Positions 5,529-35,388 of a DNA stretch of 38,590 bases are shown piece by piece (within the stretch, counting starts at the first letter, position 1; the number at the start of each line of letters is the position of its first letter). Location of the stretch: positions 1 through 38,590 of the IMG/VR virus record IMGVR_UViG_3300013093_000111; one strand, written 5' to 3'. The DNA is from a virus. The translations under genes were made by a program, and so were the position numbers. A model generated the notes under the pieces. That model saw only the letters and a list, made by a program, of their open reading frames with translations, searched no databases and had not been told where the DNA came from.

Positions 5529-5828
5529 ATGGCTACATATACTAACACAAGTCCTTGGTATACGACACCTGTTAAGAATACTTACTTAGATGTGCTATCG
5601 ATTCGTCCAGTTAGTGCTGAGCCAGATGATTTTTTATTCACTCTAACACCTCAGTATACTTACAGACCTGATCTATTAGCATATGATTTATATGGTGAAG
5701 TTGGACTATGGTGGGTGTTCATGCAAAGGAATTTAGATATTATACAAGATCCTATTTTAGATTTTGTACCAGGTACACAAATTTATATTCCTAAAAATAG
5801 CAGTTTAAGAATAATATTAGGGTTATAA
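5529..5828 (+). CDS. 53: Baseplate wedge protein gp53-like
   Basis: This 99-residue protein contains RPDLLAYDLYGEVGLWWVFM (about residues 47-66), which parallels the T4 gp53 segment RPEELANAIYGNPQLYWVLL. It is followed by a short LysM-like end, VPGTQIYIP. T4 gp53 is 196 residues, so this is a half-length form. gp53 links the wedge to the central hub in the T4 baseplate. The gene starts 2 nt after the preceding stop and ends 1 nt before the next ATG, so it is fully embedded in the baseplate operon. Confidence 0.75.
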   Translation: MATYTNTSPWYTTPVKNTYLDVLSIRPVSAEPDDFLFTLTPQYTYRPDLLAYDLYGEVGLWWVFMQRNLDIIQDPILDFVPGTQIYIPKNSSLRIILGL

Positions 5829-8196: not shown

Positions 8197-8198
8197 TT

Positions 8199-10064: not shown

Positions 10065-10066
10065 CA

Positions 10067-10510
10067 ATGGCATCGAATTTATACAATAAAATTACCATAC
10101 CCAAGAAATCTACAGTTGTCAATGCTACTCCTAAAATGTATAGGGGATTTAGTTCAGTTAACAAAACGACTGAGAATTTCTCTTTATATGATTTTGAATT
10201 AATTAAACAAGATTTAATAAATCATTTTCATGTTAGACAAGGAGAAAGATTAATGCAACCTAATTTTGGAACAATCATATGGGACTTAATATTCGAACCA
10301 TTGACGGAAGAAGTTAAAGATCTTGTATTGCAAAATGTTAATCAGATATTAAATTATGACCCTAGAATACAAGCTAGTAATATATTAATTACACCATACG
10401 AAACTGGATTACAGATTCAATGTATATTAAAGTATTTGCCCTATAACATTAGCCAATCTCTTCAGTTAAAATTTGATCAAACAAACGGTTTGTTAACAAC
10501 CTCCCTTTAA
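10067..10510 (+). CDS. 25: Baseplate wedge protein gp25
   Basis: This 147-residue protein is slightly longer than T4 gp25 (132). The signature of the gp25/GPW family is clear: RQGERLMQPNFGTIIWDLIFEPL (about residues 63-85), a helix-strand segment ending in the conserved glutamate-proline. Further on comes a beta segment with GLQIQCILKYLP. gp25 sits where the wedge meets the tube and sheath and helps trigger sheath contraction. The Shine-Dalgarno AAGGAG lies 10 nt before the ATG. The gene follows the spike stop by 2 nt and is followed by a late promoter, so it ends the first late transcription segment. Confidence 0.9.
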   Translation: MASNLYNKITIPKKSTVVNATPKMYRGFSSVNKTTENFSLYDFELIKQDLINHFHVRQGERLMQPNFGTIIWDLIFEPLTEEVKDLVLQNVNQILNYDPRIQASNILITPYETGLQIQCILKYLPYNISQSLQLKFDQTNGLLTTSL

Positions 10511-10530
10511 ATACCCACATAATTTGATCT

Positions 10531-10538
10531 AATAAATA
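10531..10538 (+). promoter_or_regulatory. T4-type late promoter before gp6
   Basis: AATAAATA, identical to the octamer before the first structural gene, lies in the 46-nt gap between gp25 and gp6 and 18 nt before the gp6 ATG. The ribosome-binding site AGGA (10547-10550) falls inside the predicted transcript. Confidence 0.7.
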
Positions 10539-10556
10539 CATTTATTAGGATTCATT

Positions 10557-13500
10557 ATGAGCTCAACGGATAGACAAAATAACCTGCTAGTTAGTGAAGA
10601 TTGGCAGAAAATTTATCAATCATTTAAGAACGCTGATTTCCAAAGCTATGACTTTGATAATTTGCGTCGAACAATGATAGATTATATTCGAACAAACTTT
10701 CCTGAAGATTTCAATGATTATACTGAGTCTAGCGAATACCTTGCTCTAATTGATCTTATTGCGTTTGTTGGTCAAAGTATAGCGTTCCGTGTTGATTTAA
10801 ATGCACGTGAAAACTTTTTAGAACTAGCAGAACGTAGAGATAGTGTGCTAAGGCTAGCACGTATGATTGGCTATAATGCCAGCAGAAATGTACCTGCAAG
10901 TGGTTTATTAAAAGTTACAACAGTTTCTACAACAGAAAATGTATTAGATAGTAATGGAATAAATTTATCTGGGCAAACAATTACATGGAATGACCCTAGT
11001 AATAGTAATTGGTATGACCAGTTTATTAAAATAATTAATGCGGCATTGCCACAGACTCAACAATTTGGAAATCCAGTAGACTCGGCAACAATTTATGGAA
11101 TTCCAACAGCGCAATACAGATTCAATGCTAATAATACTAGCGTTCCGATTTATAGTTTTAGTAAACCAGTTGCTGGTAGAAGCATGGATTTTGAAGTAAC
11201 TAGTACAACATTCGCTGGTGAAACATTTATCTACGAAGAAGCACCTAAAATTGGTAATAATATTGCATGTGTATACCAGGACGATGGATACGGTGCAGGA
11301 AGCCCTACTACAGGTTTCTTTTTTAATTTTAAACAAGGTGTGTTAAATCAAGCAACATTTAATGTTACGCAACCAACTAGCAATCAAACAATCGATATAG
11401 ATACTCAGAACATTAATAATACTGATGTATGGTTATATCAATTAAATCAAAGCAATGGATTAGAAAACACATTATGGACACCTGTACCTGCATTAACTGG
11501 TAATAATATTATCTATAATAGTCTTAATAGTAATGTAAAAACTATTTACAATGTTATTTCAAGAGCAAGCGATGCAATAACATTATCATTTGCAGATGGT
11601 ACATTTGGACAATTGCCATTAGGCAATTTTAGAATTTACTATAGAATAAGCAATGGCCTTTCTTATACTATTAATCCAGGCGATATATTGAATATTAGTA
11701 TTGGTATTCCTTATACATCTGCTAGCGGACAACCTGAAGTACTATCATTAACACTTGGATTAGTTACATCTGTAAGTAATAGTAGCCCATCTGAAACTAA
11801 TGCTAGTGTTAAAACAAATGCACCGCAGACATATTATACACAAAACAGGATGATTACTGGAGAAGACTATAATATTAGTCCTCTTAGTGTTACACAATTA
11901 GTTGCTAAAATAAAATCTGTTAATAGAACTAGTAGTGGTATTAGTCGCTATTTTGACCTAGTGGATCCGACTGGCAAGTATAGTAGCACTAATTTATTTG
12001 CTGATGACGGTATAATTTATCGAGAACCTTATGTTGGTACATCGACATTCTCGTATCTTACAAAGACAGATATTGAAGGTATAATTTACAATCAAATTTT
12101 TCAATTGCTAGACAATCCTGATTTGAGAAATTTTTATTACGATAATTTTATTAATTATATTAATGAAAGTTTAAATATATCTTGGTATAATTATACATCT
12201 GACAGTAATAGTTCGACTGGTTATGTAGGCAACCCATCAACTTCAATACCGTACAAAGTTTCATCTTACACAACAACAGATTTAAAATATTTTACAACTG
12301 GCTCGTTAATAAAATTTACTGCTCCTGCAGGTTATTATTTTGATACTACAAATAGAAATCAATTAGTTACAACTCCGAATATAACTGGAGTTACTAGTTA
12401 TCTATGGGCACAAGTGGTGTCCATTACAGGCGATGGTACTGGTGATGGTGCTGGATATTTTAGTAGTACAGGGCTAGGTTCTATTATTTTAAATAAAATT
12501 GTTCCTAGCAATGCTATCCTTAATCAAATTATTCCAGATTTATCTGTTACAATTGGATCTTCTGTAATAACAACTATGATAGATTTAATCTTTTCAAATA
12601 ATACATTTGGATTAAGATATGATTCAGCAACACAAACTTGGCAAATAGTCTTTGAATCGAATTTAAATGTAGCTAATTCATTTAGTCTTGCTAACCAAGG
12701 TGATACAACAAATACTCAACAAGATTCAAGTTGGATGTTATTGTTTACTACTAATAATGAAATTTATACAGTTAACTCTAGATTGTTGAGATACATATTT
12801 GAGAGCGACAGCGAAATATCTTTTTACTTTGATAGTAATTTAAAAATTTATGATATTGTATCTAGCAGTACAATTACTGATAGCTTAAAAATTTTAAGTA
12901 TTAATCCGCATCCAAAAAGTTTAACCGACACACTAGGAACATATCCTTTTACAACAGATTTAAACTGGCAAATTACTAGCGCATATATTGGGCTGGATGG
13001 TTATGTAGATCCTACAAAAATTGTTGTAACTTTTGCAGATTCTGAAAATAATGGTATTGTTGATAATCCTCAACTATTTTTAGATATTGTAGAGCCTAAT
13101 TATTTGCCTTTAACAAAATACATTATTCAAGAAAAATACTTAATTAGTTTAGGACAGGAAGACTACAGATATGTATACAATGATCCTGCAAATACAATAG
13201 TTGTAATTTTACCTACAGATCCTAAAGTATATTCGTCTTATAATGATGGACAGTATTTTTATTTTGTAGATACACAAGTTGTTAAAAAATATAATGCATC
13301 TACTGCTACTTTAATTCCAACTTTAGATTATAAAGTATATGTAGGACGTGATAAATTAAAATTCCAATATATTCATAATGCAGACTATGATAGTCGTATT
13401 GATCCTGGTGCAAGTAATATCATGGATATATATGTATTAACTGTTGATTATGATACAAAGTTCAGACAATGGCTATCGGGTGCTAATGTTAGCCAACCTT

Positions 13501-14039
13501 TGCCTCCAAGTAGTGCTGAATTAAACAGTATATTAAGTCCTAACTTAAATTTAATTAAATCTATAAGTGACGAAATTATATATCACCCTGTTAGTTATAT
13601 CTTATTATTTGGATCTCAAGCAGATTTAAATTTACAAGCGACATTTAATGTTGTCAAAAATCCAAGTAGTACAGCAAGCGATAATGATATTATTTCAAGA
13701 ATAATTATAGCCTTTAATCAGTTCTTTGCTTTAGAAAATTGGAATTTCGGAGATACATTTTATTTTACAGAATTAGCAACGTATGTAATAAATCAACTTA
13801 CGCCTGATGTTAGTAATTTTGTTATTGTACCTAAGCAAAATAGTTTATATTTCGGAAGTTTATTCGAAATACAATGTCCAAGTAACCAAATATTTGTAAG
13901 CTGTGCACAAGCATCTGATATTGTTATTGTATCTGGGTTGACTAGTGACAACCTTAAAACAACAACAGGACAAAATTTAAGTAATATCATTACTTCACAA
14001 AACATTACATCAGCAACATTCGGGGTAACTAATGGCTAA
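10557..14039 (+). CDS. 6: Baseplate wedge protein gp6
   Basis: This 1160-residue protein has an N-terminus characteristic of gp6 in T4-like phages: YDFDNLRRTMIDYIRTNFPE, then YLALIDLIAFVGQSIAFRVD, NARENFLELAERRDSVLRLA and MIGYNASRNVPASG (residues about 29-122). This is the baseplate-J-type opening. The middle is beta-rich and Ser/Thr/Asn-rich. The last 120 residues hold a second recognisable part with DNDIISRIIIAFNQFFALENWNFGD. T4 gp6 has 660 residues, so this version is much enlarged, mainly in the centre. gp6 forms the ring that ties the baseplate wedges together. The gene has its own late promoter and overlaps the giant gene by 8 nt. Confidence 0.9.
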   Translation: MSSTDRQNNLLVSEDWQKIYQSFKNADFQSYDFDNLRRTMIDYIRTNFPEDFNDYTESSEYLALIDLIAFVGQSIAFRVDLNARENFLELAERRDSVLRLARMIGYNASRNVPASGLLKVTTVSTTENVLDSNGINLSGQTITWNDPSNSNWYDQFIKIINAALPQTQQFGNPVDSATIYGIPTAQYRFNANNTSVPIYSFSKPVAGRSMDFEVTSTTFAGETFIYEEAPKIGNNIACVYQDDGYGAGSPTTGFFFNFKQGVLNQATFNVTQPTSNQTIDIDTQNINNTDVWLYQLNQSNGLENTLWTPVPALTGNNIIYNSLNSNVKTIYNVISRASDAITLSFADGTFGQLPLGNFRIYYRISNGLSYTINPGDILNISIGIPYTSASGQPEVLSLTLGLVTSVSNSSPSETNASVKTNAPQTYYTQNRMITGEDYNISPLSVTQLVAKIKSVNRTSSGISRYFDLVDPTGKYSSTNLFADDGIIYREPYVGTSTFSYLTKTDIEGIIYNQIFQLLDNPDLRNFYYDNFINYINESLNISWYNYTSDSNSSTGYVGNPSTSIPYKVSSYTTTDLKYFTTGSLIKFTAPAGYYFDTTNRNQLVTTPNITGVTSYLWAQVVSITGDGTGDGAGYFSSTGLGSIILNKIVPSNAILNQIIPDLSVTIGSSVITTMIDLIFSNNTFGLRYDSATQTWQIVFESNLNVANSFSLANQGDTTNTQQDSSWMLLFTTNNEIYTVNSRLLRYIFESDSEISFYFDSNLKIYDIVSSSTITDSLKILSINPHPKSLTDTLGTYPFTTDLNWQITSAYIGLDGYVDPTKIVVTFADSENNGIVDNPQLFLDIVEPNYLPLTKYIIQEKYLISLGQEDYRYVYNDPANTIVVILPTDPKVYSSYNDGQYFYFVDTQVVKKYNASTATLIPTLDYKVYVGRDKLKFQYIHNADYDSRIDPGASNIMDIYVLTVDYDTKFRQWLSGANVSQPLPPSSAELNSILSPNLNLIKSISDEIIYHPVSYILLFGSQADLNLQATFNVVKNPSSTASDNDIISRIIIAFNQFFALENWNFGDTFYFTELATYVINQLTPDVSNFVIVPKQNSLYFGSLFEIQCPSNQIFVSCAQASDIVIVSGLTSDNLKTTTGQNLSNIITSQNITSATFGVTNG

Positions 14040-17000
14040 TAGCAATAATCCAATCGGTCGTGACGGGCTAAGTGCAAACTTATTACCTAATTTTTATCAA
14101 ACTATTGCTAATAAAAAGTTTTTACAAGCAACTATTGACCAATTATTTCAAACAGGTACAGTTAAAAAAGTAAATGGTTATATAGGCAGACAAAATGCAA
14201 AATCAGCAAATGGTACTGATATCTACGTAAATGCTGCCGATAGATTTAGACAACATTACCAATTAGAACCTGCAATTACAGTTGAAGATAGTATTGGAAA
14301 TACTACATTTTTTAAAGATTATCAAGACTATATTAATCAAATTAGGGTATTTGGCGGAAATACTAATAATCATGCTAGATTAAATAAACAAGAATTTTAT
14401 TCTTGGGACCCACATATTGATTGGGATAAGTTTGTTAATTTTCAAAATTATTATTGGCAACCATATGGCCCTGAAACTATTGTAATACCAGGACAACAGT
14501 TAGCCATTACTAGTACATATACTGTAGAAATACAATCTGAAATCAACAATAACGAATATTTGTTTACACCAAACGGATTTTCTCTTAATCCTGTATTAAC
14601 ACTATATAGAGGGCAAACATACATTTTTGAAATTAATAGCCCAGGTAATCCTTTTAGTTTTAAAACTGCTAGAAGTACAGGTATCGATGATAGATATATT
14701 ATTTCGACTATTGATAATTATGGTGTAGAAAATGGGACAATTATATTCACAGTACCCTTAGATGCTCCTACAGTTTTATACTATCAAAGCGAAACAGATT
14801 TGAATTTAGGCGGTGCGATTGAAATATTATCTATTGATCAGGATACTTATATTAATGTAGAAAACGATCTATTAGGCAAAAAAACATATACATTACCTGG
14901 CGGTATGGCGTTAAGCAACGGTATGAAAGTTGCATTTAAAGGTAATGTAACACCTGTAGAATATTCTACTGGAGAGTTCTATGTAGAAGGTGTAGGTACA
15001 TCGATTAAATTAATACCTACATCAATTTTAGAAATTATAAATTCTTATACAGTAGAACAAACTGTGCCGTTTGACAGTGAAAACTTTGATAGTAACCCTT
15101 TTAGTGATGCTACAGGTTTTGCTGGCCAATTAGACTATATTGTTATTAACCGTGCTAGTAATGACAGAAATAACTGGAGCAGATATAATCGTTGGTTCCA
15201 TAAAGATGTATTAATTGCTAGTGCAACTTTCAACAATAATATTGCAAGTTTAGATCAATCTGCAAGAGCAGTTAGACCAATTATAGAATTTGAAGCTAAT
15301 TTAAAATTATTTAATTTTGGAACTACTGCAATTCCTGATGTTGATTTGATTGATAGTTTTACAACAGATGCATTTTCAACAATTGAAGGTACATTTGGGT
15401 ACAATGTTGATGGAATACCGTTAGCACAAGGACAACGAATTATTTTTACTGCTGATACAGATCGCTTAGTAAAAAATAAAATATTTGAAGTTACATTTGT
15501 CGATGTATTGCATTTGAATGAAGGTAGTCGTCAAATTCATCTAGTAGAAATAAGTAATCCTGAATTAAATCAGATTGTATTAATTAAGTCGGGTATAACA
15601 AATCAAGGAAAATCTTATTGGTATGATGGTACTACATGGCAGCCAGGACAAATTAAAAATACTGTAAATCAACAACCGTTATTTGATATTGTAGATGAAA
15701 ATAAAATTAGTTACGGAAATAATTTAGTTTATAATGGCTCTACATTTAAAGGAACTAGCCTTTTTTCATATAAAATAGGATCAGGCTCTAAAGACTCATC
15801 ATTGGGATTTTCTCTAAGTTACAAAAATATTAATAACATTGGAGACATTATTTTTAATTTTACACTAGCGACTGATTCATTTCAATACAAACAATCTACA
15901 TCAATTATTACACAAAATATTAATATAGGATATTTAATTAGTCAAGATTATGCTGGTAATTTAATTTATAAAAACGGCTGGCAAACTTGTATAACACCTA
16001 CGGTACAAGCCGCAGTTAGGATTTACAAAAATTCTGGTTTAACGAATAATTTTAATATTGATATTTTTGATGACATTACGCAACTAACTGATTTAGTTGT
16101 TAGAGTTTATGTTAATGGTATTAGATTAGATCCTACATTGTGGACATTAACTACTAATTCTCGTTATAAACAAATTGTATTAACTAATGCAATTGCAAAA
16201 ACTGATGTATTAACAATTAAGGCATTTTCTGCTCAACCTATTAACAATAATGGGTATTATGAAATTCCTGTTAATTTACAAAATAATCCATTGAATAATA
16301 TTATGGGAGATTTCACATTAGGTGAAGTTACCGATCATGTTACTTCAATAGTTGATAATTTAGGATCAGCTTTTGTAGGATCGTTTCCTGGGCCAGGAAA
16401 TCTTAGAGATTTAGGCAATATAACACAATATGGTACAAAATTTGTACAGCATAGCGGTCCTTTAAGCCTAGCATTGTATCATATAACATCAAATTCAAAC
16501 AATATTATTAAATCATTGGAACAAGCAAGAAATGATTATAATAATTTTAAAAGAAATTTTGTTAAAACTGCAAGCAATTTAGGTGTTGAAGGAGATCCAG
16601 TTACACTAGTTAATTTAATCCTTCAAAAAATTAATAAAGATAAACCTAACACAGGGCCTTATTATTTTAGTGATATGATTCCTTACGGTGCTAGTGTTAA
16701 AACTAATTTAACCGTAGTAGATTATCGAATTAAAACTTATCCGTTAAGTGCAGTTTTTACATTGGATTCATTATCGAATAAAGCTGTTGGAATTTATTTA
16801 AACGGAGTTCAATTAATTTTTGGACGTGATTATACATTTAGTACACAAGGATTTGTAGTAATTGATAATAGTGTTGTTATGAATAATGGCGACACTATCA
16901 CCACCTATGAATATGATAGTACAGATGGATGTTTTGTTCCAGAAACTCCTACCAAGTTAGGTATGTGGCCAGCATATGTTCCTCAAATTTATATGGATAC

Positions 17001-20000
17001 ATCGTTGGTTACTCCGCAATTAATGATACAAGGACACGATGGTAGTCAAGTTCTTGCTTACGGTGATTATCGTGATAATTTAATCTTAGAATTAGAAAAA
17101 AGAATTTTTAATAATATTAAAGTTAAGTATGATACTTCTATTTTTGATATCGCTGACATTCTTCCTAGTTATAACAGAAATAATGATTATAGTTTATCAG
17201 AATTTAATCAAGTACTTGCTCCTAGTTTTTATAAATGGACAAGTTTAGCTGGAAGGGATTTTACTAAACCATTAAGTTATGATATAAACAATTCATTTAC
17301 TTACAACTACACTGGAAATTCAGCACCAAACGGCGAAAATGTTCCTGGATATTGGAGAGGAATATATCGTTGGTTACTAGACACTGACCGTCCACATATT
17401 TGCCCATGGGAAATGTTAGGATTCAGTATAATGCCAAGCTGGTGGACTAGTGTGTATGGTCCTGCACCTTATACTAGTGATAATTTGCCATTGTGGCAAG
17501 ATATCAATGATGGTATGGTTCGCGAACCTGGTGTATCTGCTATAAAATTAAACAAATATGCTAAACCGTTTTTAATGAATCATATCCCTGTTGACGAAGG
17601 CGGCAATTTATTAAGCCCTATCGAATGTGGATTAGCAGTAGGCACTATTACTCCGAATGTAGATAGTGATTTTGTATTTGGTGATGTTAGTCCAGTAGAA
17701 GCTGCCTGGCGCCGTAGTAGTCATTATTCTTTTAGTGTAATATTGGCTAGTATGTTATTAACACCTGCAAACACATTTGGATTACTTTTAGATAGAAGTA
17801 GAATTATTAGAAACCTCGCAGGTCAGCTGGTTTATTCTGATACTATGTTAAGAGTAAGACCTGCAGATATTATTTTACCTAGTATCTATTCCAGTACTAC
17901 TAGAATACAAACAGCTGGTATTGTAAATTATATCGTTTCTTATATTCTTAATTTTATATTCAGTAATAATACAAAAATATATTTGAAATATCAAGAAGAT
18001 TTACAAACTATGATACCACAATTATCATATCGAGTAGGTGCATTTACAGGAAAAGATCAATTTAATTTATTATTAGATTCAAAAACTCCATTAAGTACTG
18101 GTAATGTTTTTGTTCCAAGTGAAAATTTTAAAATCATTTTAAACGTTTCTAGCCCAATACAAAAAATAACTTATAGTGGAGTTATTATAACAAAAAAACA
18201 AACTGGATACGAAGTTAAAGGATATAGCAGAACTCAACCTTATTTTGTCTACTACCCTTATACACAATCCGGTAACACTATTAATGTTGGCGGAATAAGT
18301 GATTCGTATAGTGTATGGACTCCTGGTCAGCAATATGCAGTTGGATCTATAGTACAATATAGCAATACTTTTTATCGTTGTACTATAACAAATACAGCAA
18401 CAAATACATTTGACATTACTTATTTTGCGCCTTTGACAAATCTACCAGTTGTAGGTGGAGTAAATGCAATTTTAAGAAAACGTTGGGATACAACTACTCC
18501 TATTGTAGTTCCGTACGGTACTGAATTTTATAAGATCCAAGATGTAGTTGATTTTTTACAAGGCTATGGCGAATATTTAAAACTACAAGGTTTTGTGTTC
18601 GAAGATTTTAATTCAAATCTTCAAGCAGTTTCTAACTGGGATACTAGTGTTAACGAATTCTTATTTTGGACCACACAAAATTGGGGTGCAGGGCAGGATA
18701 AATGGAGTGACTGGACTCCGGATCTTCCAGTCACTTACGGATCTATTGTGAGATATAATGGTGACTATTATAGTGCATTGTTTAATATAGCCGCAACTAA
18801 CGTATTCGATGCTACTAAGTATACAAAATTAGATGGATTATCGGATGTTGGCAATAGTGTTATTAGTTTAAGTCCAAGTGCAAATAAATTAACATTCTTA
18901 ACAAAACTTGCAGTTGTTGATGATATAACAAATGAGTTTTATGATTATGAAATTTCTAAAGTAGATGGAACTCCTTTAAAACCTCAATTCTTAGATAGCT
19001 ATCGATCGGGTAATGTTGTTAGTTACAGTCCAAAGACAAGTGATGGAATTTACGGAGCAACTTTTTATCTAGTACAACATGAGCAAGTTATTACTTTAGA
19101 TAATACTACAATTTTTAATGATTTAATTTACAATCCAGAAAGTGGATATAGACAAGAACGTTTGAAAGTTTCTTCACACGTTAGTTCACATTGGTATGGC
19201 GGATTTGATGTTCCTGGATTTATTTTTGACCAAGCAACTATTCAACAATGGCAACCTTGGCAAGATTATGCATTAGGTGATATTGTAAATTACCAAGGAT
19301 ATTATTATGGTGCTACTACTGCATTAGCAGGTGTCGCTGAATTTAATCCAGCAAACTGGACACAGCTAGCATCTAAACCTACACCTCAGTTAATTCCTAA
19401 TTGGACATATAAAGCTAGTCAGTTTACAGATTTTTATGATTTAAACGGAGATAATTTTGATACTGCTCAACAAGAGATGGCGCAACATCTTATTGGATAT
19501 CAATCGCGTCAATATTTAGATAATATTATTCAAGATCCAGTTAGCGAATTTAAATTTTATCAAGGTATGATCCGAGATAAAGGAACTCAAAATGTTCTTA
19601 ATAATTTATTCAATGTGTTAAGTTCTGATAATTTAGAAAGTTTAGTATTCTATGAAGAATGGGCAGTTAGAAGCGGACAGTACGGTGCTGCCAACGCATT
19701 TGAAAATATTGAATTTATATTAGATGAATCTGCATTTAGAATTAATCCGCAAGGGTTTAATTTAACAAATGTAGTTGATCCTAATTTAAATTTTATTATT
19801 CAACAAACTCCTAATGATGTTTATCTTAAACCTTTAGGATATAATTCTACTCCGTGGCCGATTTTATCTACATATAATCCGTTCTTACGTAGTGCAGGGT
19901 ATGTTAATGCGGCAGATGTTTCTTTAGTATTAAAATCTTTAAGCGATATTGTCAATTCTAATGTTGTATTATCAGAAGGAAACTATGTTTGGGTTACGTT

Positions 20001-23000
20001 TGAAGGACCAAGCTGGAATGTATATAGATTTACTAATCAACATATTAACATTGTATCGTTATCGCTAAACAAAGGAATTATGACATTTAATTCCGATGTA
20101 CTAGTTAAATTGTCAGTGGGTGATTGGATTTATATATCTGGAGTGTCTCTAATTACAGGGTATTATCAGATTAGTACAGTTTCATTAAATCAATTTACAG
20201 TATCTACTTCGATCGGATCGATTCCTAGTCCGTTTACTCAAGCTAGTAGTATAATTGTACATTCTTTTGTGACACAAAAAACATCATCGATAGACACATT
20301 AGATACTATTTTAACTATTAAATTAAATTCAAAAGAATTAATATGGACCGATAATAGTGGTAATGGCGATTGGGCAGTATGGCAGTATAATCCTGTATAT
20401 AATATTGTACCTATTGGTAATACTCTTCCAAGAACAAATTTACAATTTGGTTCATTGGTTGCAATGAGTACTAATGGATTTATAGCCGCAGTAGGATCAT
20501 TGATAGGTGAAATAGTTATCTATGATAAAAACGGTATTGAAATAGAATGGACACAACGTCAAGTTATACAAGATACACAGGGTATTGTAAGTAATAGAAT
20601 TTCTCTTGCAGACGACGGCAGTTATATGCTAGTGAGTAATTGTACTGGACAAGGTACAGTCTTGTTATACAAGAAAGATATTAATAATATTTTTTCATAT
20701 TTTACAACTCTTACTAGTCCAAACACACAGTCCGGCGATGAATTTGGTTATAGTTCTGTGTTTGGAGTTGACGAGAATGGTAACACACCTGTTTATATTT
20801 CGTCCCCTGGCACTACTAATAAAGTATATAAATTTACATATTCTAATTCAGTTCAAGCATCATCGTCTTACAATCCTGTAGGAAGTTTAGGAGTAACATT
20901 AGCTGTTGAATCGACATCTGGTATTTCAGCAGGCATGATTGTATCAGGAATTGGATTTAGTAGTAATCAAACAGTTGTATCTGTTATTGATAGTAAAACT
21001 GTTTTATTAAGTGGCTTACCTGATTCTATTCCTTCAGGAGTTATTAATTTTTCAACATTGGGTTGGACTTCAGATATGTCTGTGGTATTTTCTGCACCGT
21101 CAGGAATTACATCTTTCGGACAGACTATAAAATTAAGCGGGGATGGAAAAACTATTGCAATTTCAGGAATTAATTCTGGTTTATCTAAACATGAAGTTTT
21201 TATATATCAAAATAATGGAACAGAATTTACTGCTCTAACACCAATTCTTGGTCCAGCTAACGATGTAGACTTTGGTAATGGAATTGATATTTCGTATGAC
21301 GGTACTTACATTGTAGTATCAGATGATTCATTAAGCATTAATGGATTAAATCAAAGAGGCGGTGTTACAGTTTATAAATTAATAAATGGTCAATATTCAG
21401 TTCTCCAAAATTTAATACCTCGTACTCCTGAAACTTCTGGACATTTCGGTAATAAAATTTCTTTCATGAATGATTCGCAAACTATCGTAGTTTATAGTCA
21501 ATACGGAGACAACTATATTACTACAACATTCGATGCAACAAATACTGAAACTAAAAACACGCCGACTACATTTGATAACGGTGATACAGTATTAACGGTT
21601 ACTCAAGTAAATAGCGGTAGAGTTGATATATATGACAAATATGTTAATAATTGGATATTCAGTGAAAGTTTACCTAAAGTTAATCCTATTGTTAATGCTG
21701 GTAAATTTGTAACAAATGATGTTTACTCTATTTTAACAATTGGCACAACTGATTTTACTTTAATAGGTGCTAGTGCAAATAAAGTGGGTATAACATTTAC
21801 TGCAACCGGCCCTGGTAAAGGTACAGGTACAGCAACTATCTCTACATTGATATCGGACGGTTATGGTGTCGGATTTGCAGTTGGTAATAATCAAATATTA
21901 ATTGGAGCTCCTACTACAATCGATCAAGGTTTAGTTAGCGGATCGATTTATAACTATGCAAAAACACCAAATTCTTTTACATGGACACAATTACATTCAG
22001 ATATTAATAAACCTGATATTACAAAAGTTAAAAAAGCATTTTTATACAATAAAGCTAATGGTAAATTAATAACTTATTTGGATACTATCGATCCTGCACA
22101 AGGAAAAATTCCAGGCCCAGCAGAGGAAGAAATAAAATATAAAACATTTTATGATCCTGCAACATACTCTGTAGGTAATAATAACATAAATGTAAATGCA
22201 AGTACAGCATGGACTACAGATCAAGTTGGTATGCTGTGGTGGGATTTGAGAACAGCTAAATTTATAAATGCCTACGAAAATGATACATCGTATAGAAATA
22301 CTAATTGGAATACACTAGCTGTAGGTGCAAGTATTGATATTTACGAATGGGTTTCTACAAAGTTAAAACCAAGTCAATGGGACGCTCAGGCAGATACAAC
22401 TGCCGGCAATGCATTAGGAATTAGTGGCCAAAGTTTATATGGTGATACTGCTTATTCAACAAGCCAAAAATATAATAATATAACAAAGACTTATACAAAC
22501 ACATATTATTTCTGGGTTAAAAATAAAAAATTTATTCCTAACATTCCTGGTAGAAATTTGGCAGCTCAAGACGTTTCAAATTTAATTGCTAATCCTAGAG
22601 GTCAAGGGTATACATATTTGGCATTAACTGGATTAGATTCATTTAGTTTAGTAAATGTTAAACCATATTTGACCGGAACAGATATTGTTTTAAGTATTGA
22701 ATACTGGACAGGTAGTAAAACAGATCAAAACATACATAGTCATTGGAATATTATCAGCGATGATCCAACAACTTATATTCCTGCAACTATTGAACAAAAA
22801 TGGATTGATAGTTTATGTGGATGTGACCAAGCAGGACGTCTTGTACCTGATATTGCATTACCACCTAAACTACGATATGGAATTGAAAACAGACCTCGTC
22901 AAAGTATGTTTATTAATAGATTCGAAGCTTTAAAAGAATTTGTAGAATTAACAAATCAAATATTGATACAAAATCAAATAGTAGAAGTTTACAATATTGA

Positions 23001-26000
23001 ACCTTTAGAATCGTATGATGCATACCCTGAAGTAATATCGGGATTATATGATGTAACTTTTGATACTGATTCAGAATTATCTTATGCAAATGTTGCAACT
23101 ATATCTAGACCGTCTATTATTCCTATTCCACCTTCTACTACTAATGGTAAAATTGCCGGAGGGACAATATTATCTCAAGGAAAAGGATTTATTGTTGCAC
23201 CGTATATTACAGTAATTGGAACAGGTGTTGGTGCAGTAGTTAAGGCTATAATTAATACAAAAGGTCAAATTACTGGAGTAGATGTTATATCTTCTGGTGA
23301 AGGATATGATGACACTACTAAATTTATAATTAGAGATTATAGTGCACTAGTAAAGAGTGATAGTCAAGCAAATGGAAATTGGAGCATTTATAGTTACGAT
23401 CCAATACAACAAACTTGGTACAGAACAAAAAATCAAGCATATGATGTAAGAAATTATTGGAATTATGCTGATTGGTATGCTACTGGCTATAGCCAATTTT
23501 CTGTTATAGATTTTTCGGTTGGAACATTTGCTGATTTAAATTCTATTCAACCCAATATTGGAGAAGTAGTTAAAGTTAGATCAGTTAATTCAGGCGGTTG
23601 GATGCTTTTAGAAAAATATGCAGACTCTGCTAGTATTGATTGGACATTAACTTATAAAACTGTTGGATTACAGAATGGAACAATTCAATTAAATTCTGCA
23701 TTATATCAAACTGCGAATACATTGTTAGGATTCGATAATACTATTTTTGATAATGAAGGTTACGATTTAGTTGCCGCAACTGAACTTAGAATTATTTTAA
23801 ATTGTTTAAAAACTAATATTTTTATTAATGATTTAAATGGTTCATATTCTGATTTATTCTTTTCTAGTGTAAGATACGTGCACAGCGAACAACCTTATGT
23901 CGATTGGATTTTTAAAACAAGTTTTGTTAAAGCACAGCATAATGTTGGATCATTAGATCAACCAGTAACATACAAACCTGACAATTTAAGTAATTTTGAA
24001 GATTATGTCAACGAAGTAAAACCGTATAAAACAAAAATACGCGAATATGTAAGTAATTACGATAGCATTGATCCTGCAGAGCTACCGATTACAGATTTTG
24101 ACTTGCAACCGATTTATAAAAACAATCAGTTAACAACTATCAACGCATTTGTTTCTGGTGGAAAAGTATCGGCATATGATGCTTCTATTCAAACTTATCC
24201 TTGGAAATTTTGGCTAGACAATGTTGGATTTGAAGTTACTGAAATTAAATTAATCAATGGAGGCAGCGGATATATAACAGCCCCACAAGTAATCATTTCT
24301 AGTAGCAGTGGATCCGGTGCAACTGCTAGAGCGTTTATTGTTAATGGGTCTGTTAGTAGAATTGTATTATTAACTCCTGGATCTGGCTATTTGTCTGCAC
24401 CTTTAATAGTGTTTAATGGCGGGTTAGCTGCCACAGGCGGAGTATCAGCAGTTGCAAGTACAGTAATTGGAAATAGCGTTGTACGTTCGAATTTTATTGG
24501 AATAAAATTTGATAGAACAGATCAGAATTATTTAATATCTCAAATAAATCATACAGAAACCTTTACAGGATCTGGATCTAAAATACAATTTGCATTAATT
24601 TGGGCACCTGATGGCAGAATTGGTCAAAGTTCTGTAACAATTAATGGTGTGCCAGTATTAAGAGATAGTTATATTTTAAATATTGTCACTAGCACTACTA
24701 AGGGTTATACAACTTATTCAGGAAATATAACTTTTACAACCGCGCCTGCTAACAATGCTTCTATTGTTGTGAACTATATTTTAGATCAATCAGTGCTAGG
24801 AGCAACTGATAGAATACAATATTACTATGATCCGACTACTGGACAATTAGGAAAAGATTTAGCACAGTTAATGACTGGGATAGATTACGGTGGAGTAATT
24901 GTTAATGGTTTAGGATTTCAAATTTCTAACGGTTGGGATAGTGTTCCTTATTATTCTGATAAATGGGATGCCGGAGATACAAATTTCACAGATAATATCT
25001 TGATAGTTGGAAGAAACCCATTAGGTAATCATGTACTTACATTAAATTATACGCCTAATGCGGGGATTCAACTTAATCTTTATAAATTTATTTCTTCTAT
25101 AGATCCAGTTACTGGTAATACAGTTCGAACTACATTAAGATTAGATGATCCTAATTTTAACATACATTCATTTATTAAACAATTAATAACTTCTTCTACA
25201 TATGATATGTTATTTGGAAGTAATTATCAAAGTATTCAAGTCGGCAATGCAATTTTGCAATCGATAACAACTGCCGGATACGATTCGGCAACTACTAATT
25301 TTTCTATAGTTAATCTTATTAAAAGTATTACAAATTTAACATCAGTTGCTTCGAATAATACTGCGGTTGCTGGGCTTAATACAAGTTTATCTATTATTAC
25401 AAATATTATTAATGGCGGCTTGATACCTCCAGTATTGAATCCATCACCAAACAGTATAAATGCAGGTATAACTCATGCTTCTACATTATTGTTTGATAAT
25501 ATTCCATTTATACAAGCAGAAATGATTGCTTATATAACAACCAATTATTCAAGTGTGGTATATAATCAAACTTCATACCGAACTCAATTACAGTATACTA
25601 TTGAGTCTTTAATTTATGATTTATTATATGGCGGTAATAGTCAGTCTTTATATACTGCAAGATCAGCAAGTTCTATAGGATTCACAGTACCTCCGTCAAA
25701 CTTTACAACTTACTACACAGCCATATATAATCATTTGAATAGTTTAGTTCAAAGTATTATTGTTAATACAACAGTTACTCCTTTACAAGGAGTAATACAT
25801 CAATACAAAAATAGTAGTTTAAGTGGTGGATCTGTTGCAAGTACTAGTTTGTCTAATAATATTACTAGTATAAAAAATTACTTGACTAATGTATCAGTTA
25901 CCACAGTGAATCCTACGATTGCATTTGGATCTTCTGCATTACAGGCTGTTGCTAATACTATATTATCGTCTCAGAATACGCTAACACCTAAATATAATTC

Positions 26001-28485
26001 ATCAGCGATTATTAATACATTCTTAGCAGATGGAGTTACTGACACATTCTATATACCTTCATCATATTCTGTGGTAGTGAATGATGAATTCATCATTCGT
26101 CAAACAACTAGCGATGGATCGGTTGCTCCTTCTGATACTGATTACGATACCGCATTAGATGGCGGAAACATGTTAAGCGGAATTTATGCTACAGCAACCG
26201 GATTATTAGCTGAAGATATTATAGTCGATGGCGATGATTTAGTAACACCGACAACCAGCGGTGCTCCTGAAGAAGTAGTTCCTGGACAAATTGTTGATAC
26301 TGTTGCTATCAAAGTATTTGATAAACCAAATAGTGGATCTGCAACAATTAAAGTTAACAATTATGTTGCAAATGGATTAACAACTATATTTGCTTTAACT
26401 CAGCGCCCTAATAGTACAGGTGCAGTAATTGTTAAAGTTAATGGATTAATTAAAACTTTAGGAGTTGACTATACTATTGATTATAAAAATAATAATGTAA
26501 TTTTTATGACTGCACCTTCTATTCAACAAGAAGTTAGTCTTTTTAGTATTGGGTTCAGTGGATCGAATATTTTAGATATTGATTATTTTATAGGAGATGG
26601 TAGTACAACTGAATTTGTTACTAATGCTGAATGGCAAAATCCTGTAACATCTTTAGTATATCTAAACGGCTCGGTAGTTAATCCAGAATTATTTAAAACA
26701 GATGCCACATATGAATTATCGAATGTTATTGGATTAAGATTTAGTGTTGCACCTCCTGTAAATTCTTTAATTAATTTTATTATTGTTTCAGGTTCTGAAC
26801 AAACTTTTGCTATCACTAAGGTAGAAACTGTAGCAACAAATGGTGGTACTACTTATACATTGCAAAATCAAATAGGAAATAGTTTACCAAATGAATCTAA
26901 TATGATTGTTAGAGTAGATCAAAATATTTTATCTGGACCTTCTAACAGTTATTTTACAATCGGTTCGAATAAACTAACTTATTCAATCGATCCGACTAAA
27001 TTTGTTCCGTATTCAGTTGCTAACACTAGTATTGTTTTATTAGTTGAGAATGTTCAATTGAAAGAAGGTACTGATTATACATTGGATTTGAGTGGAATAA
27101 GTGTTAAAATAACTCGTAACATTTATAATACGTATAAAGGTAAGACACTAATTGTTAGTGTTATAGTTGGGGAAGGGTATACTTATAATCCAATTTCGCA
27201 TCAAATTACTTTTACTACAGCATACGATCATACTCACACAGTACAAGTTATTAGTAATTATCAGCACGATATATTAGATATACAACGCACTACAGTTAAT
27301 GTTACAAGTAATGCACAACTTGTGACAAATTCTGCGCAATATTACTATTATCATTCGGTAGCTGGTGGAATAATACAGTTAGATAGACCAGTTATTAGCA
27401 GTTACTATGTTTGGGTAATTAAAAATAATACACTACTCACACCGGTTGTTGATTATATTTTAAATGACGATAATCAAAGTATTACTTTGGCGTTAGCACC
27501 TAATATATCTGATCAGATTACATTGATAACATTTGGCAGCAATATTCTTACTGCTGGAATCGCATATATGCAATTTAAAGATATGCTAAATCGAGTTTCT
27601 TACAAGAGATTAAGTGCTAATAAACAAACTACATTAGCACAAGATTTACATTGGAATGATGTGAATATTGTATTAACTAGTGGTAATAATTTTGATGGAC
27701 CAATTCCGATAGCTAACAGACCTGGTATTATTGAAATTAGAGGTGAACGTATAGAATATTTTACTAAAAATGGAAATATTTTAAGTCAATTAAGAAGAGG
27801 TACTTTAGGTACAGGAGTTTATACAGTACACAAAGCAGGATCGTTTGTTCAAGATATTGGAAATAGTTCAACTATTCCGTATACAGATACACAAAATATA
27901 CAAACACCTACAATTACAAGTAGTACGAATATAGTTCCATTACCTTATACACCATATAGTATTGACGATATAGAAGTGTTTATTAGTGGAACTAGATTGA
28001 GAAAATCTAATTATAGCATTTTTAATATTAATAATGCACCAACTAGTCCAGAAGGTGATGTTAGTTACCCAGCTGATTTTGTAGTTCCTAACGGGATACC
28101 GGTATGGATTAAAAATACAGTCTTTACAACAAATACATATTTGTATTATGGAAATAAATGCTATCTTGTAACCGTAGGCGGTACTACTAGTGCTGATGTT
28201 CCTAAAACAGCAACACAATCGGCTATATTTGCCACTCCACCTACACATACTTCGGGTTCTGCAACTAATGGAACAGTAACATTAGAATTTATTGCAACTT
28301 TTGAAACAACTAATTGTGTGATTTTGTTAAAGTCCATAGCAATAGGAACACAGGTAAACATAGTAAGAAACACCTTAATACCGTGGGACGGTGGCTATGG
28401 TACTACAAATATTATGTATGATAGTGGTAAAATTAGCGAATTCCTTAAAGCAACTCCTGGAATTTGGTATAGAGAATATAGATAA
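14032..28485 (+). CDS. Giant 4817-residue baseplate/fibre-type structural protein in the gene 7 position
   Basis: One unbroken frame of 14.45 kb codes a mosaic protein. Residues 1-150 are an anchoring-type N-terminus (LLPNFYQTIANKKFLQATID). Then follow: a cupredoxin-like domain (about 168-270); three chitin-binding-like modules with W, Y and GxIVxY motifs (about 1427-1468, 1560-1603, 1740-1778); a seven-bladed FG-GAP-like propeller (about 2135-2645) with inserts, one being GTTDFTLIGAS...FTATGPGKGTG; paired G-x-G-Y repeats (about 3044-3095 and 3404-3464); a helical LLYGGN module (about 3715-3890); and repeated DG-TT-F/NG/DYT beta units (about 3998-4530). The C-terminus has GERIEYFTKNGN and RRGTLGTG. 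T4 gp7, the wedge protein encoded after gp6, has 1032 residues; order suggests this replaces it. No catalytic site is visible. It starts inside gp6 (8-nt overlap). Confidence 0.85.
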   Translation: MANSNNPIGRDGLSANLLPNFYQTIANKKFLQATIDQLFQTGTVKKVNGYIGRQNAKSANGTDIYVNAADRFRQHYQLEPAITVEDSIGNTTFFKDYQDYINQIRVFGGNTNNHARLNKQEFYSWDPHIDWDKFVNFQNYYWQPYGPETIVIPGQQLAITSTYTVEIQSEINNNEYLFTPNGFSLNPVLTLYRGQTYIFEINSPGNPFSFKTARSTGIDDRYIISTIDNYGVENGTIIFTVPLDAPTVLYYQSETDLNLGGAIEILSIDQDTYINVENDLLGKKTYTLPGGMALSNGMKVAFKGNVTPVEYSTGEFYVEGVGTSIKLIPTSILEIINSYTVEQTVPFDSENFDSNPFSDATGFAGQLDYIVINRASNDRNNWSRYNRWFHKDVLIASATFNNNIASLDQSARAVRPIIEFEANLKLFNFGTTAIPDVDLIDSFTTDAFSTIEGTFGYNVDGIPLAQGQRIIFTADTDRLVKNKIFEVTFVDVLHLNEGSRQIHLVEISNPELNQIVLIKSGITNQGKSYWYDGTTWQPGQIKNTVNQQPLFDIVDENKISYGNNLVYNGSTFKGTSLFSYKIGSGSKDSSLGFSLSYKNINNIGDIIFNFTLATDSFQYKQSTSIITQNINIGYLISQDYAGNLIYKNGWQTCITPTVQAAVRIYKNSGLTNNFNIDIFDDITQLTDLVVRVYVNGIRLDPTLWTLTTNSRYKQIVLTNAIAKTDVLTIKAFSAQPINNNGYYEIPVNLQNNPLNNIMGDFTLGEVTDHVTSIVDNLGSAFVGSFPGPGNLRDLGNITQYGTKFVQHSGPLSLALYHITSNSNNIIKSLEQARNDYNNFKRNFVKTASNLGVEGDPVTLVNLILQKINKDKPNTGPYYFSDMIPYGASVKTNLTVVDYRIKTYPLSAVFTLDSLSNKAVGIYLNGVQLIFGRDYTFSTQGFVVIDNSVVMNNGDTITTYEYDSTDGCFVPETPTKLGMWPAYVPQIYMDTSLVTPQLMIQGHDGSQVLAYGDYRDNLILELEKRIFNNIKVKYDTSIFDIADILPSYNRNNDYSLSEFNQVLAPSFYKWTSLAGRDFTKPLSYDINNSFTYNYTGNSAPNGENVPGYWRGIYRWLLDTDRPHICPWEMLGFSIMPSWWTSVYGPAPYTSDNLPLWQDINDGMVREPGVSAIKLNKYAKPFLMNHIPVDEGGNLLSPIECGLAVGTITPNVDSDFVFGDVSPVEAAWRRSSHYSFSVILASMLLTPANTFGLLLDRSRIIRNLAGQLVYSDTMLRVRPADIILPSIYSSTTRIQTAGIVNYIVSYILNFIFSNNTKIYLKYQEDLQTMIPQLSYRVGAFTGKDQFNLLLDSKTPLSTGNVFVPSENFKIILNVSSPIQKITYSGVIITKKQTGYEVKGYSRTQPYFVYYPYTQSGNTINVGGISDSYSVWTPGQQYAVGSIVQYSNTFYRCTITNTATNTFDITYFAPLTNLPVVGGVNAILRKRWDTTTPIVVPYGTEFYKIQDVVDFLQGYGEYLKLQGFVFEDFNSNLQAVSNWDTSVNEFLFWTTQNWGAGQDKWSDWTPDLPVTYGSIVRYNGDYYSALFNIAATNVFDATKYTKLDGLSDVGNSVISLSPSANKLTFLTKLAVVDDITNEFYDYEISKVDGTPLKPQFLDSYRSGNVVSYSPKTSDGIYGATFYLVQHEQVITLDNTTIFNDLIYNPESGYRQERLKVSSHVSSHWYGGFDVPGFIFDQATIQQWQPWQDYALGDIVNYQGYYYGATTALAGVAEFNPANWTQLASKPTPQLIPNWTYKASQFTDFYDLNGDNFDTAQQEMAQHLIGYQSRQYLDNIIQDPVSEFKFYQGMIRDKGTQNVLNNLFNVLSSDNLESLVFYEEWAVRSGQYGAANAFENIEFILDESAFRINPQGFNLTNVVDPNLNFIIQQTPNDVYLKPLGYNSTPWPILSTYNPFLRSAGYVNAADVSLVLKSLSDIVNSNVVLSEGNYVWVTFEGPSWNVYRFTNQHINIVSLSLNKGIMTFNSDVLVKLSVGDWIYISGVSLITGYYQISTVSLNQFTVSTSIGSIPSPFTQASSIIVHSFVTQKTSSIDTLDTILTIKLNSKELIWTDNSGNGDWAVWQYNPVYNIVPIGNTLPRTNLQFGSLVAMSTNGFIAAVGSLIGEIVIYDKNGIEIEWTQRQVIQDTQGIVSNRISLADDGSYMLVSNCTGQGTVLLYKKDINNIFSYFTTLTSPNTQSGDEFGYSSVFGVDENGNTPVYISSPGTTNKVYKFTYSNSVQASSSYNPVGSLGVTLAVESTSGISAGMIVSGIGFSSNQTVVSVIDSKTVLLSGLPDSIPSGVINFSTLGWTSDMSVVFSAPSGITSFGQTIKLSGDGKTIAISGINSGLSKHEVFIYQNNGTEFTALTPILGPANDVDFGNGIDISYDGTYIVVSDDSLSINGLNQRGGVTVYKLINGQYSVLQNLIPRTPETSGHFGNKISFMNDSQTIVVYSQYGDNYITTTFDATNTETKNTPTTFDNGDTVLTVTQVNSGRVDIYDKYVNNWIFSESLPKVNPIVNAGKFVTNDVYSILTIGTTDFTLIGASANKVGITFTATGPGKGTGTATISTLISDGYGVGFAVGNNQILIGAPTTIDQGLVSGSIYNYAKTPNSFTWTQLHSDINKPDITKVKKAFLYNKANGKLITYLDTIDPAQGKIPGPAEEEIKYKTFYDPATYSVGNNNINVNASTAWTTDQVGMLWWDLRTAKFINAYENDTSYRNTNWNTLAVGASIDIYEWVSTKLKPSQWDAQADTTAGNALGISGQSLYGDTAYSTSQKYNNITKTYTNTYYFWVKNKKFIPNIPGRNLAAQDVSNLIANPRGQGYTYLALTGLDSFSLVNVKPYLTGTDIVLSIEYWTGSKTDQNIHSHWNIISDDPTTYIPATIEQKWIDSLCGCDQAGRLVPDIALPPKLRYGIENRPRQSMFINRFEALKEFVELTNQILIQNQIVEVYNIEPLESYDAYPEVISGLYDVTFDTDSELSYANVATISRPSIIPIPPSTTNGKIAGGTILSQGKGFIVAPYITVIGTGVGAVVKAIINTKGQITGVDVISSGEGYDDTTKFIIRDYSALVKSDSQANGNWSIYSYDPIQQTWYRTKNQAYDVRNYWNYADWYATGYSQFSVIDFSVGTFADLNSIQPNIGEVVKVRSVNSGGWMLLEKYADSASIDWTLTYKTVGLQNGTIQLNSALYQTANTLLGFDNTIFDNEGYDLVAATELRIILNCLKTNIFINDLNGSYSDLFFSSVRYVHSEQPYVDWIFKTSFVKAQHNVGSLDQPVTYKPDNLSNFEDYVNEVKPYKTKIREYVSNYDSIDPAELPITDFDLQPIYKNNQLTTINAFVSGGKVSAYDASIQTYPWKFWLDNVGFEVTEIKLINGGSGYITAPQVIISSSSGSGATARAFIVNGSVSRIVLLTPGSGYLSAPLIVFNGGLAATGGVSAVASTVIGNSVVRSNFIGIKFDRTDQNYLISQINHTETFTGSGSKIQFALIWAPDGRIGQSSVTINGVPVLRDSYILNIVTSTTKGYTTYSGNITFTTAPANNASIVVNYILDQSVLGATDRIQYYYDPTTGQLGKDLAQLMTGIDYGGVIVNGLGFQISNGWDSVPYYSDKWDAGDTNFTDNILIVGRNPLGNHVLTLNYTPNAGIQLNLYKFISSIDPVTGNTVRTTLRLDDPNFNIHSFIKQLITSSTYDMLFGSNYQSIQVGNAILQSITTAGYDSATTNFSIVNLIKSITNLTSVASNNTAVAGLNTSLSIITNIINGGLIPPVLNPSPNSINAGITHASTLLFDNIPFIQAEMIAYITTNYSSVVYNQTSYRTQLQYTIESLIYDLLYGGNSQSLYTARSASSIGFTVPPSNFTTYYTAIYNHLNSLVQSIIVNTTVTPLQGVIHQYKNSSLSGGSVASTSLSNNITSIKNYLTNVSVTTVNPTIAFGSSALQAVANTILSSQNTLTPKYNSSAIINTFLADGVTDTFYIPSSYSVVVNDEFIIRQTTSDGSVAPSDTDYDTALDGGNMLSGIYATATGLLAEDIIVDGDDLVTPTTSGAPEEVVPGQIVDTVAIKVFDKPNSGSATIKVNNYVANGLTTIFALTQRPNSTGAVIVKVNGLIKTLGVDYTIDYKNNNVIFMTAPSIQQEVSLFSIGFSGSNILDIDYFIGDGSTTEFVTNAEWQNPVTSLVYLNGSVVNPELFKTDATYELSNVIGLRFSVAPPVNSLINFIIVSGSEQTFAITKVETVATNGGTTYTLQNQIGNSLPNESNMIVRVDQNILSGPSNSYFTIGSNKLTYSIDPTKFVPYSVANTSIVLLVENVQLKEGTDYTLDLSGISVKITRNIYNTYKGKTLIVSVIVGEGYTYNPISHQITFTTAYDHTHTVQVISNYQHDILDIQRTTVNVTSNAQLVTNSAQYYYYHSVAGGIIQLDRPVISSYYVWVIKNNTLLTPVVDYILNDDNQSITLALAPNISDQITLITFGSNILTAGIAYMQFKDMLNRVSYKRLSANKQTTLAQDLHWNDVNIVLTSGNNFDGPIPIANRPGIIEIRGERIEYFTKNGNILSQLRRGTLGTGVYTVHKAGSFVQDIGNSSTIPYTDTQNIQTPTITSSTNIVPLPYTPYSIDDIEVFISGTRLRKSNYSIFNINNAPTSPEGDVSYPADFVVPNGIPVWIKNTVFTTNTYLYYGNKCYLVTVGGTTSADVPKTATQSAIFATPPTHTSGSATNGTVTLEFIATFETTNCVILLKSIAIGTQVNIVRNTLIPWDGGYGTTNIMYDSGKISEFLKATPGIWYREYR

Positions 28486-28541: not shown

Positions 28542-29150
28542 ATGCAGACTAAAGACCAAACAGGAATTCACATTGAAGGGCACATTAAAATATATGACCC
28601 GGTATCGAATGAAATTTATATCGATAAACGTAATGCTATTCATTATGAAAACATAAGTGTAGCATTAGCTGAAAGTTTAGCCGATAGCGGTAATGGTTTT
28701 GTTTATCAAATGGGATTTGGTAATGGCGGAACAAGCATCGACCCTACAGGTATTATTACTTATTTGACACCTAACACAAGTGGAACTAACGCAAGTTTAT
28801 ATAATCAAACTTATGTGAAAGTCGTTAATCAAAATTCAAGTAACAATCTTGATCCAACTCGAAATTTCATTGAAACACGCCACGTAACCGGAACAAATTA
28901 TACAGATTTATTTGTAACTTGTTTATTAGATTATGGCGAGCCAGGTGGTCAAAGCGCATACGATACTACGAATGCGGGTGAAAGTGCATATGTTTTTGAT
29001 GAATTAGGTCTGCAAAGTTACAATTCTAACGGTACTAGTTTATTATTAACTCATGTGGTTTTCCATCCAGTCTTAAAAAGTCTTAATAGATTAATTCAAA
29101 TTGATTATACAGTAAGAATTCAAAGTTTAACTGGCCTAGTGTCAGTTTAA
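28542..29150 (+). CDS. Virion structural protein of unknown role (202 aa)
   Basis: This is a mostly beta protein without signal or membrane segments. Visible landmarks are HIEGHIKIYDPVSNEIYIDK and NAIHYENISVALAESLADS (about residues 10-48), then FVYQMGFGNGGTSIDPTG and a Thr/Asn-rich middle. The C-terminal half ends VFHPVLKSLNRLIQIDYTVRI. I recognise the general look (NAIHYEN, GFGNGGTS) from structural gene clusters of large T4-like phages, but I know no function. Its place between the giant gene-7-position protein and the fibres is where T4 has gene 8, although I see no gp8 similarity. An adaptor between baseplate and fibres is a guess. It begins a new late transcript. Confidence 0.75.
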   Translation: MQTKDQTGIHIEGHIKIYDPVSNEIYIDKRNAIHYENISVALAESLADSGNGFVYQMGFGNGGTSIDPTGIITYLTPNTSGTNASLYNQTYVKVVNQNSSNNLDPTRNFIETRHVTGTNYTDLFVTCLLDYGEPGGQSAYDTTNAGESAYVFDELGLQSYNSNGTSLLLTHVVFHPVLKSLNRLIQIDYTVRIQSLTGLVSV

Positions 29151-34979: not shown

Positions 34980-35014
34980 ACTTCTATTTTATCGATAAGA
35001 TAATTATAGTAGTG

Positions 35015-35020
35015 TATAAT
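35015..35020 (+). promoter_or_regulatory. Possible sigma70-type -10 box before the glycosyltransferase cassette
   Basis: A perfect TATAAT preceded by TG stands in the 58-nt gap, 17 nt before the ATG at 35038. No good -35 box is present at the usual distance, and the late octamer is absent. If used, the start would be near 35027, giving a very short leader that still holds GGAG (35028-35031). This would give the cassette an expression class different from the fibres. Confidence 0.35.
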
Positions 35021-35037
35021 ACATTACGGAGTTATCT

Positions 35038-35388
35038 ATGGATGAAAAAATTGAAAAAGCTTTTGCAGTAGTTAATTACATGTCTACGCTATCCAACCAG
35101 CGTAGAATTATTCTAGAAGAATACAATCAAAGTTTACTTTATTATAAAAACGGATCTACATTTCGAGTAACTCCTGATTTAATTAGTTTGACTAAAATTT
35201 GTTTAGATTCGGGAAAAACTACAGATGTACCATTTGTAGATTTAAATAACCTTCCAGTAATAATTCCTTCTGTCCAAGATTTTTTTAACGATATCACTGA
35301 TTTGTATTTTAAAGCAACTGCTGTATATGCTGAAAAATATAAAAATATCAAGTCAAAACGTAAAATTGCTGATTTGTTTGAGCTATGA
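35038..35388 (+). CDS. Small protein of unknown function heading the glycosyltransferase cassette
   Basis: This 116-residue, mainly helical protein has an N-terminal segment KIEKAFAVVNYMSTLSNQRRIILEEYNQSL, then a short beta hairpin YYKNGSTFRVTPDLISL. The C-terminal helix is lysine-rich (YFKATAVYAEKYKNIKSKRKIADLFEL). I see no known motif. It overlaps the next gene by 4 nt (ATGA), so it is coupled to the first glycosyltransferase and may be a partner or regulator. Similar small proteins beside glycosyltransferases occur in marine T4-like phages as far as I recall, with no known role. Confidence 0.75.
   Translation: MDEKIEKAFAVVNYMSTLSNQRRIILEEYNQSLLYYKNGSTFRVTPDLISLTKICLDSGKTTDVPFVDLNNLPVIIPSVQDFFNDITDLYFKATAVYAEKYKNIKSKRKIADLFEL

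Follow-up and report, generated by a model that had tools for sequence, protein, structure and literature searches.

The window analysed here, i.e., the whole stretch of viral DNA, is a linear IMG/VR record of 38,590 bases, 37% of which (the share already given in the initial annotation) is taken up by a single giant ORF on the plus strand. This ORF encompasses 4,817 codons with an ATG start and no internal stop, and its ATG shares 8 bases with the end of the ORF of a gp6 homologue. The gene order on the plus strand is gp53 - structural protein - gp5 - gp25 - gp6 - giant, with another structural protein gene preceding gp53 on the same strand. Downstream of the giant come genes for a conserved protein of 202 aa, a collar protein resembling gp10 (two genes downstream) and further fibre-type proteins. 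The minus strand upstream encodes a late sigma factor as well as SbcC- and SbcD-like subunits of the gp46/gp47 type. The genes of the locus are as follows:

5529..5828, plus strand, gp53-type wedge subunit (phrog_7145 “baseplate wedge subunit”, 2.1e-25; the name gp53 is taken from RaK2-type counterparts)
8199..10064, plus strand, gp5-type hub/lysozyme protein (phrog_13211, 4.5e-50; Gp5_trimer_C, 8.9e-8)
10067..10510, plus strand, gp25 homologue (PF04965, 2.3e-9; phrog_261)
10557..14039, plus strand, gp6-type baseplate wedge protein, 1,160 aa (phrog_10646, 1.5e-290; phrog_219, 6e-18)
14032..28485, plus strand, giant virion protein at the gene-7 position, phrog_10938 family (ORF; PHROGs match; homologues adjoin gp6)
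28542..29150, plus strand, 202-aa conserved downstream partner at the gp8 position (phrog_11259, 5.5e-65)
29163..31451, plus strand, gp10-like protein with a collar domain (PF07484, 3.7e-15; Gp10_C, 0.012, under the cut-off)

The gp6 homologue of the window is itself enlarged (1,160 aa vs. 660 aa in T4), and in SCTP-2, a Salicola phage, the gene just before that of the giant encodes 3,096 aa (locus L008, 2609-11899). Towards the end of the window, a fibre-type protein (32557-34035) weakly matches the Peptidase_G2 IMC autoproteolytic domain (2.6e-4, under the curated cut-off), and 34056-38522 holds a run of six ORFs (116-307 aa) that have no match in PHROGs, one of them with a sub-threshold Pfam match.

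The gene order in the PA5oct record is identical to that in the window, and in 218 of the 220 IMG/VR relatives with enough upstream sequence, the gene immediately before the giant is gp6. The phrog_11259 protein is encoded downstream of the giant in 42 of the 57 testable loci; in the RaK2 group, it is not adjacent to the giant. The window giant thus has the gene order, gp25-gp6-gp7, by which gp7 in the wide sense (T4, cyanophages, phiM12) is recognised. It had been proposed from the sequence that this gene takes over the gene 7 position; the position stands, given the gene order and the near-invariant place of gp6 before the giant among the relatives, whereas “taking over” applies only in the sense that the gene sits where gene 7 sits.

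The first IMG/VR scan yielded 80 loci, and later scans yielded several hundred contigs encoding the core. In one relative (L067), the giant ORF (7127-15220) breaks off after 2,697 codons and the matches resume just downstream (15235-17508), the candidate causes being a sequencing error, a split gene or a frameshift. Among the 234 relatives with loci fetched from public contigs, a few of which come from one same contig, 140 contain ORFs of at least 4,000 aa. The ORFs that are complete in the fetched DNA (n = 88) range from 2,503 to 4,863 aa, and the shortest of them may represent pieces of broken genes. In all 400-codon blocks open to comparison, dN is lower than dS, although dS is saturated, and the final few hundred codons are beyond the fetched flank in most relatives, so that selection is less well tested there. 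The giant gene is under purifying selection wherever compared. Together with the ORF lengths in the relatives and the linkage to gp6, this makes it a real, selected, single coding frame of a size typical of its family, in agreement with the initial annotation, which had deduced selection from the unbroken frame. A chance ORF or an assembly artefact is ruled out by the long ORFs of the relatives combined with dN < dS, and a frameshift is rejected as well.

In PHROGs, the giant protein hits phrog_10938, annotated as “virion structural protein”, in five stretches (1028.6 bits, E 0), and a tblastn search retrieves matches in 82 phage records, mostly homologues. Annotated homologues of 3,326-4,555 aa are encoded directly after gp6 in jumbo phages of the RaK2, 121Q, PA5oct and Atu_ph07 types (PA5oct, 3,857 aa; Atu_ph07, 4,449 aa; RaK2, 3,326 aa; Phosso, 4,555 aa; SCTP-2, 3,807 aa; Vibrio phage 2.275, 3,771 aa), and homologues after gp6 are found also in PBECO4, Munch, CBB, XaC1 and Hallingskeid. 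The window giant is therefore a further member of a jumbo-phage family already represented in PHROGs and by many GenBank entries, and the implied novelty of the gene falls away, given that both the family and giant genes at the gene-7 position are already public. The giants of phrog_10938 (PA5oct gp355, Atu_ph07 gp180, RaK2 ORF070, CBB_236, phAPEC6 gp245 and SCTP-2 gp140) are homologous to the window protein at residues 16-155, ~350-2000 and 2640-3400, and like it are modular and encoded after gp6. The window protein is longer than those of the cultured phages (4,817 vs. 3,326-4,555 aa), has its own set of inserts and shows only about 21-34% identity to them over the long matches.

Several of these homologues are virion proteins. 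The record of PA5oct gp355 carries an ESI-MS/MS note, and CBB_236 appears in the published CBB virion proteome (PMC5259590; 21 peptides, 7.7% coverage). In phAPEC6, the 382 kDa gp245 was detected in the virion with 17 peptides and 7.6% coverage, and adjoins the 131-kDa wedge protein gp244 (PMC7247149); judging from its size and position, gp245 appears to be a homologue of the giant. Presence in the virion is thus the homologues' evidence and, with coverage below 8% in CBB and phAPEC6, speaks to part of the chain.

Alignment of the window protein to eleven homologues defines three conserved blocks (residues ~16-155, ~350-2000 and ~2650-3400), with lineage-variable inserts between them and a variable C-terminus. 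Neither tandem repeats nor an internal self-match were found in the giant protein, and the earlier description of it as a chain of modules rather than one long repeat holds. The parts of the protein are encoded as follows:

14077..14496, plus strand, conserved N-terminal block, residues ~16-155 (alignment; no gp7 similarity detected)
14551..14889, plus strand, mobile module, residues ~174-286, common to cyanophage tail-fibre proteins
15079..20031, plus strand, main conserved block, residues ~350-2000, holding the PWEM[LF]GF block and the gp7-like core
18316..19416, plus strand, three CBM5/12-like (chitin-binding type 3 fold) modules (Pfam, profile and model matches)
19489..19626, plus strand, probable gp7-type “KGT” wedge core, residues ~1820-1865 (LIGYQSRQYL...FYQGMIRDKGTQNVLNNLFNVL; hhalign against non-T4 gp7 cores)
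20059..21948, plus strand, insert with FG-GAP-type repeats, residues ~2010-2639 (Pfam FG-GAP_2, 1.8e-5)
21949..24231, plus strand, second conserved block, residues 2640-3400 (alignment; AlphaFold model)
24232..28482, plus strand, variable C-terminal region with fibre-type modules, residues 3401-4817 (low occupancy and identity among homologues)

The module at residues ~174-286 is missing from most of the jumbo homologues; by eye it is cupredoxin/YHYH-like, and similar database proteins are named “YHYH domain”. The PWEM[LF]GF block sits near residue 1125. The CBM5/12-like modules begin near residues 1429, 1561 and 1740 (exact starts from reading the sequence); Pfam PF02839 matches the giant in two stretches (4.2e-6), and both the profile and the predicted model of this span resemble CBM5/12 domains. 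The FG-GAP-type stretch, probably a beta-propeller, is lineage-variable and occurs in fewer than half of the aligned homologues. For residues 2640-3400, the AlphaFold model is confident over most of its length, and no PDB structure exceeded Z 2.8 when a second comparison was confined to the candidates supplied by Foldseek, which is no proof of a new fold. A PDB sequence search with the whole giant protein returned no match.

The link between the giant and gp7 at the sequence level comes from the segment at residues ~1820-1865. In hhalign comparisons with deep alignments on both sides, where the gp7 alignment was deepened with a loose motif filter, this segment matches non-T4 gp7 cores with scores of 28-34 (p 6e-5 to 5e-4), whereas the best of 100 column-shuffled decoys scores 18.9, other slices of the giant score below 20, and the positive control, T4-type vs. 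other gp7, scores about 90. The match is short (about 48 columns), and the hhalign probability of 30-65% is under the usual level for a firm call; on this profile evidence, it is a weak but specific, probable match to the gp7 “KGT” core. The same segment gives no match to T4-type gp7 alone with a deep alignment, shallow profile comparisons of the giant with T4 gp7 yield no signal, and phrog_964, the T4 gp7 profile, matches neither the window protein nor any of eight jumbo relatives. Two regions had been proposed for comparison with T4 gp7: for residues 1840-1930, the weak specific match fits the proposal, whereas the first 150 residues show no similarity to gp7.

An NCBIfam scan of the core region detects no TIGR02242-type domains in the window protein (Pfam coverage of this slice came from the whole-protein scan); phiM12 gp7 matches TIGR02242 under its cut-off. 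The AlphaFold model of residues 1560-2015 places helices around the core with a confidence of only about 55-75, and a fold search with this region returned mainly CBM domains and jumbo homologues. A gp7-core HMM recovers gp7 of T4 (3e-10), F86, S-CRM01 and Bellamy. In a HMMER search of eight jumbo phage records, it detects no separate gp7. The same HMM fails to recognise the giant itself, so the missing separate gp7 is consistent with replacement and does not prove it.

Taken together, the position of the giant speaks for gp7, and the sequence probably does so as well, and we consider it likely that the giant is the jumbo-phage counterpart of T4 gp7. The proteins already characterised in this role differ greatly in size. 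The T4 gp7 (1,032 aa) is a six-copy monomer that contacts gp6, gp8, gp9 and gp10, forms together with gp8 a platform for the gp6 dimer, and swivels in the hexagon-to-star change (PMC3004832). In XM1, two gp6-like chains and the gp7 orthologue gp17 (242 aa) build the core bundle, and flexible parts of gp17 hold the tail spikes (PMC10457771). That gp7 orthologues of such different sizes carry peripheral parts supports the assignment of the giant to gp7. The phrog_10938 membership, the mass-spectrometric detection of homologues and the giant cyanophage genes annotated gp7 in P-SSM2 and P-SSM4 also count in its favour. In the available part of the CBB report, the table of T4-core homologues includes gp6, gp25 and gp53, and gp7 is absent from that part of the table (PMC5259590).

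There are two other readings to be weighed, of which the better one is that the giant is a baseplate-attached side fibre or host-binding arm that lies behind gp6 by happenstance, outside the gp7 slot. The CBM5/12 modules resemble those in phage tail spikes, the module at residues ~174-286 is shared with cyanophage tail-fibre genes, the C-terminus is variable, and RaK2 has ramified fibres (PMC3622015), all of which would suit a fibre. Against it stand the strict linkage to gp6 (218/220) and about 2,400 core residues conserved across phages of very different hosts; in addition, the match to the KGT core is specific, and no other gp7 was found in the eight jumbo records. Given the gp6 linkage and the conserved core, we regard a giant side fibre, which the initial annotation had offered as an option, as rather unlikely.

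Even less probable, in our estimate, is a fusion in which one chain combines the functions of gp7 with those of gp8, gp9, gp10 or gp11, notwithstanding the large size of the giant and the fact that no gp8, gp9 or gp11 homologue is recognised nearby. A separate gp10-like protein is encoded at 29163-31451, and profile scans of the giant for gp8, gp9, gp10 and gp11 produced nothing convincing, albeit at low power because gp9-gp11 are represented by single T4 sequences. The gp8 profile does match a slice near residue 2340 with a probability of 59%, which most likely reflects a mobile module common to non-T4 gp8. Hence the suggestion that the giant has absorbed domains of separate proteins finds no support for gp8-gp11 in these low-power scans; by sequence, the inserts look like mobile phage-fibre modules instead.

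For the giant as a gp7 equivalent, we infer both the core assignment and the steps of the following mechanism. The giant would act as a scaffold in each of the six baseplate wedges, where it would bind a gp6 dimer and carry the peripheral parts. The region of residues 1820-1865 would be the gp6-binding wedge core, while the conserved blocks outside it (from the N-terminus to ~2000, and 2640-3400) could make up a wedge arm of the jumbo type. The variable inserts, i.e., the CBM5/12, propeller, cupredoxin-like and fibre modules, might decorate the baseplate rim, where they could assist in holding fibres or in contacting the surface of the host. By analogy with T4 gp7, movement of the arm may relay fibre contact to the gp6 ring and so lead to sheath contraction. 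Under the simplest reading, the small wedge core was kept, and a large conserved arm and replaceable host-contact modules have grown onto it.

Somewhat more tentatively, we favour the possibility that the giant of the RaK2/PA5oct/Atu_ph07 type is a true orthologue of gp7, a subunit whose length would then run from 242 aa in XM1 to more than 7,000 aa, host-contact modules having been inserted repeatedly around a core that is small and helical. If the gp7 assignment is correct, a function is provided for a giant gene of many jumbo phages that the annotations covered here give only as “structural” or “hypothetical”, and the baseplate wedge itself, besides the fibres, would be a site where phages build in host-contact modules.

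The T4 gp7 and the window giant both lie between gp6 and the gp10 region and show a weak resemblance in the core motif, whereas their sizes are very different (1,032 vs. 4,817 aa) and there is no significant direct sequence match. In cyanophages as well, giant proteins are encoded directly after gp25-gp6, namely in P-SSM2 (5,195 aa), P-SSM4 (7,312 aa), Bellamy (4,067 aa) and S-CAM22 (6,273 aa). The P-SSM2 and P-SSM4 proteins are annotated as gp7; taken together with that of Bellamy, the label is gp7 or wedge initiator, and the S-CAM22 protein is listed as a virion structural protein. Beyond the mobile modules and the weak core match, no sequence homology was found between the cyanophage giants and the window giant, and the KGT core is located near residue 200-700 in the former, vs. 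1840 for the probable core of the latter. The position after gp25-gp6, the mobile modules and the weakly matching KGT core are common to both.
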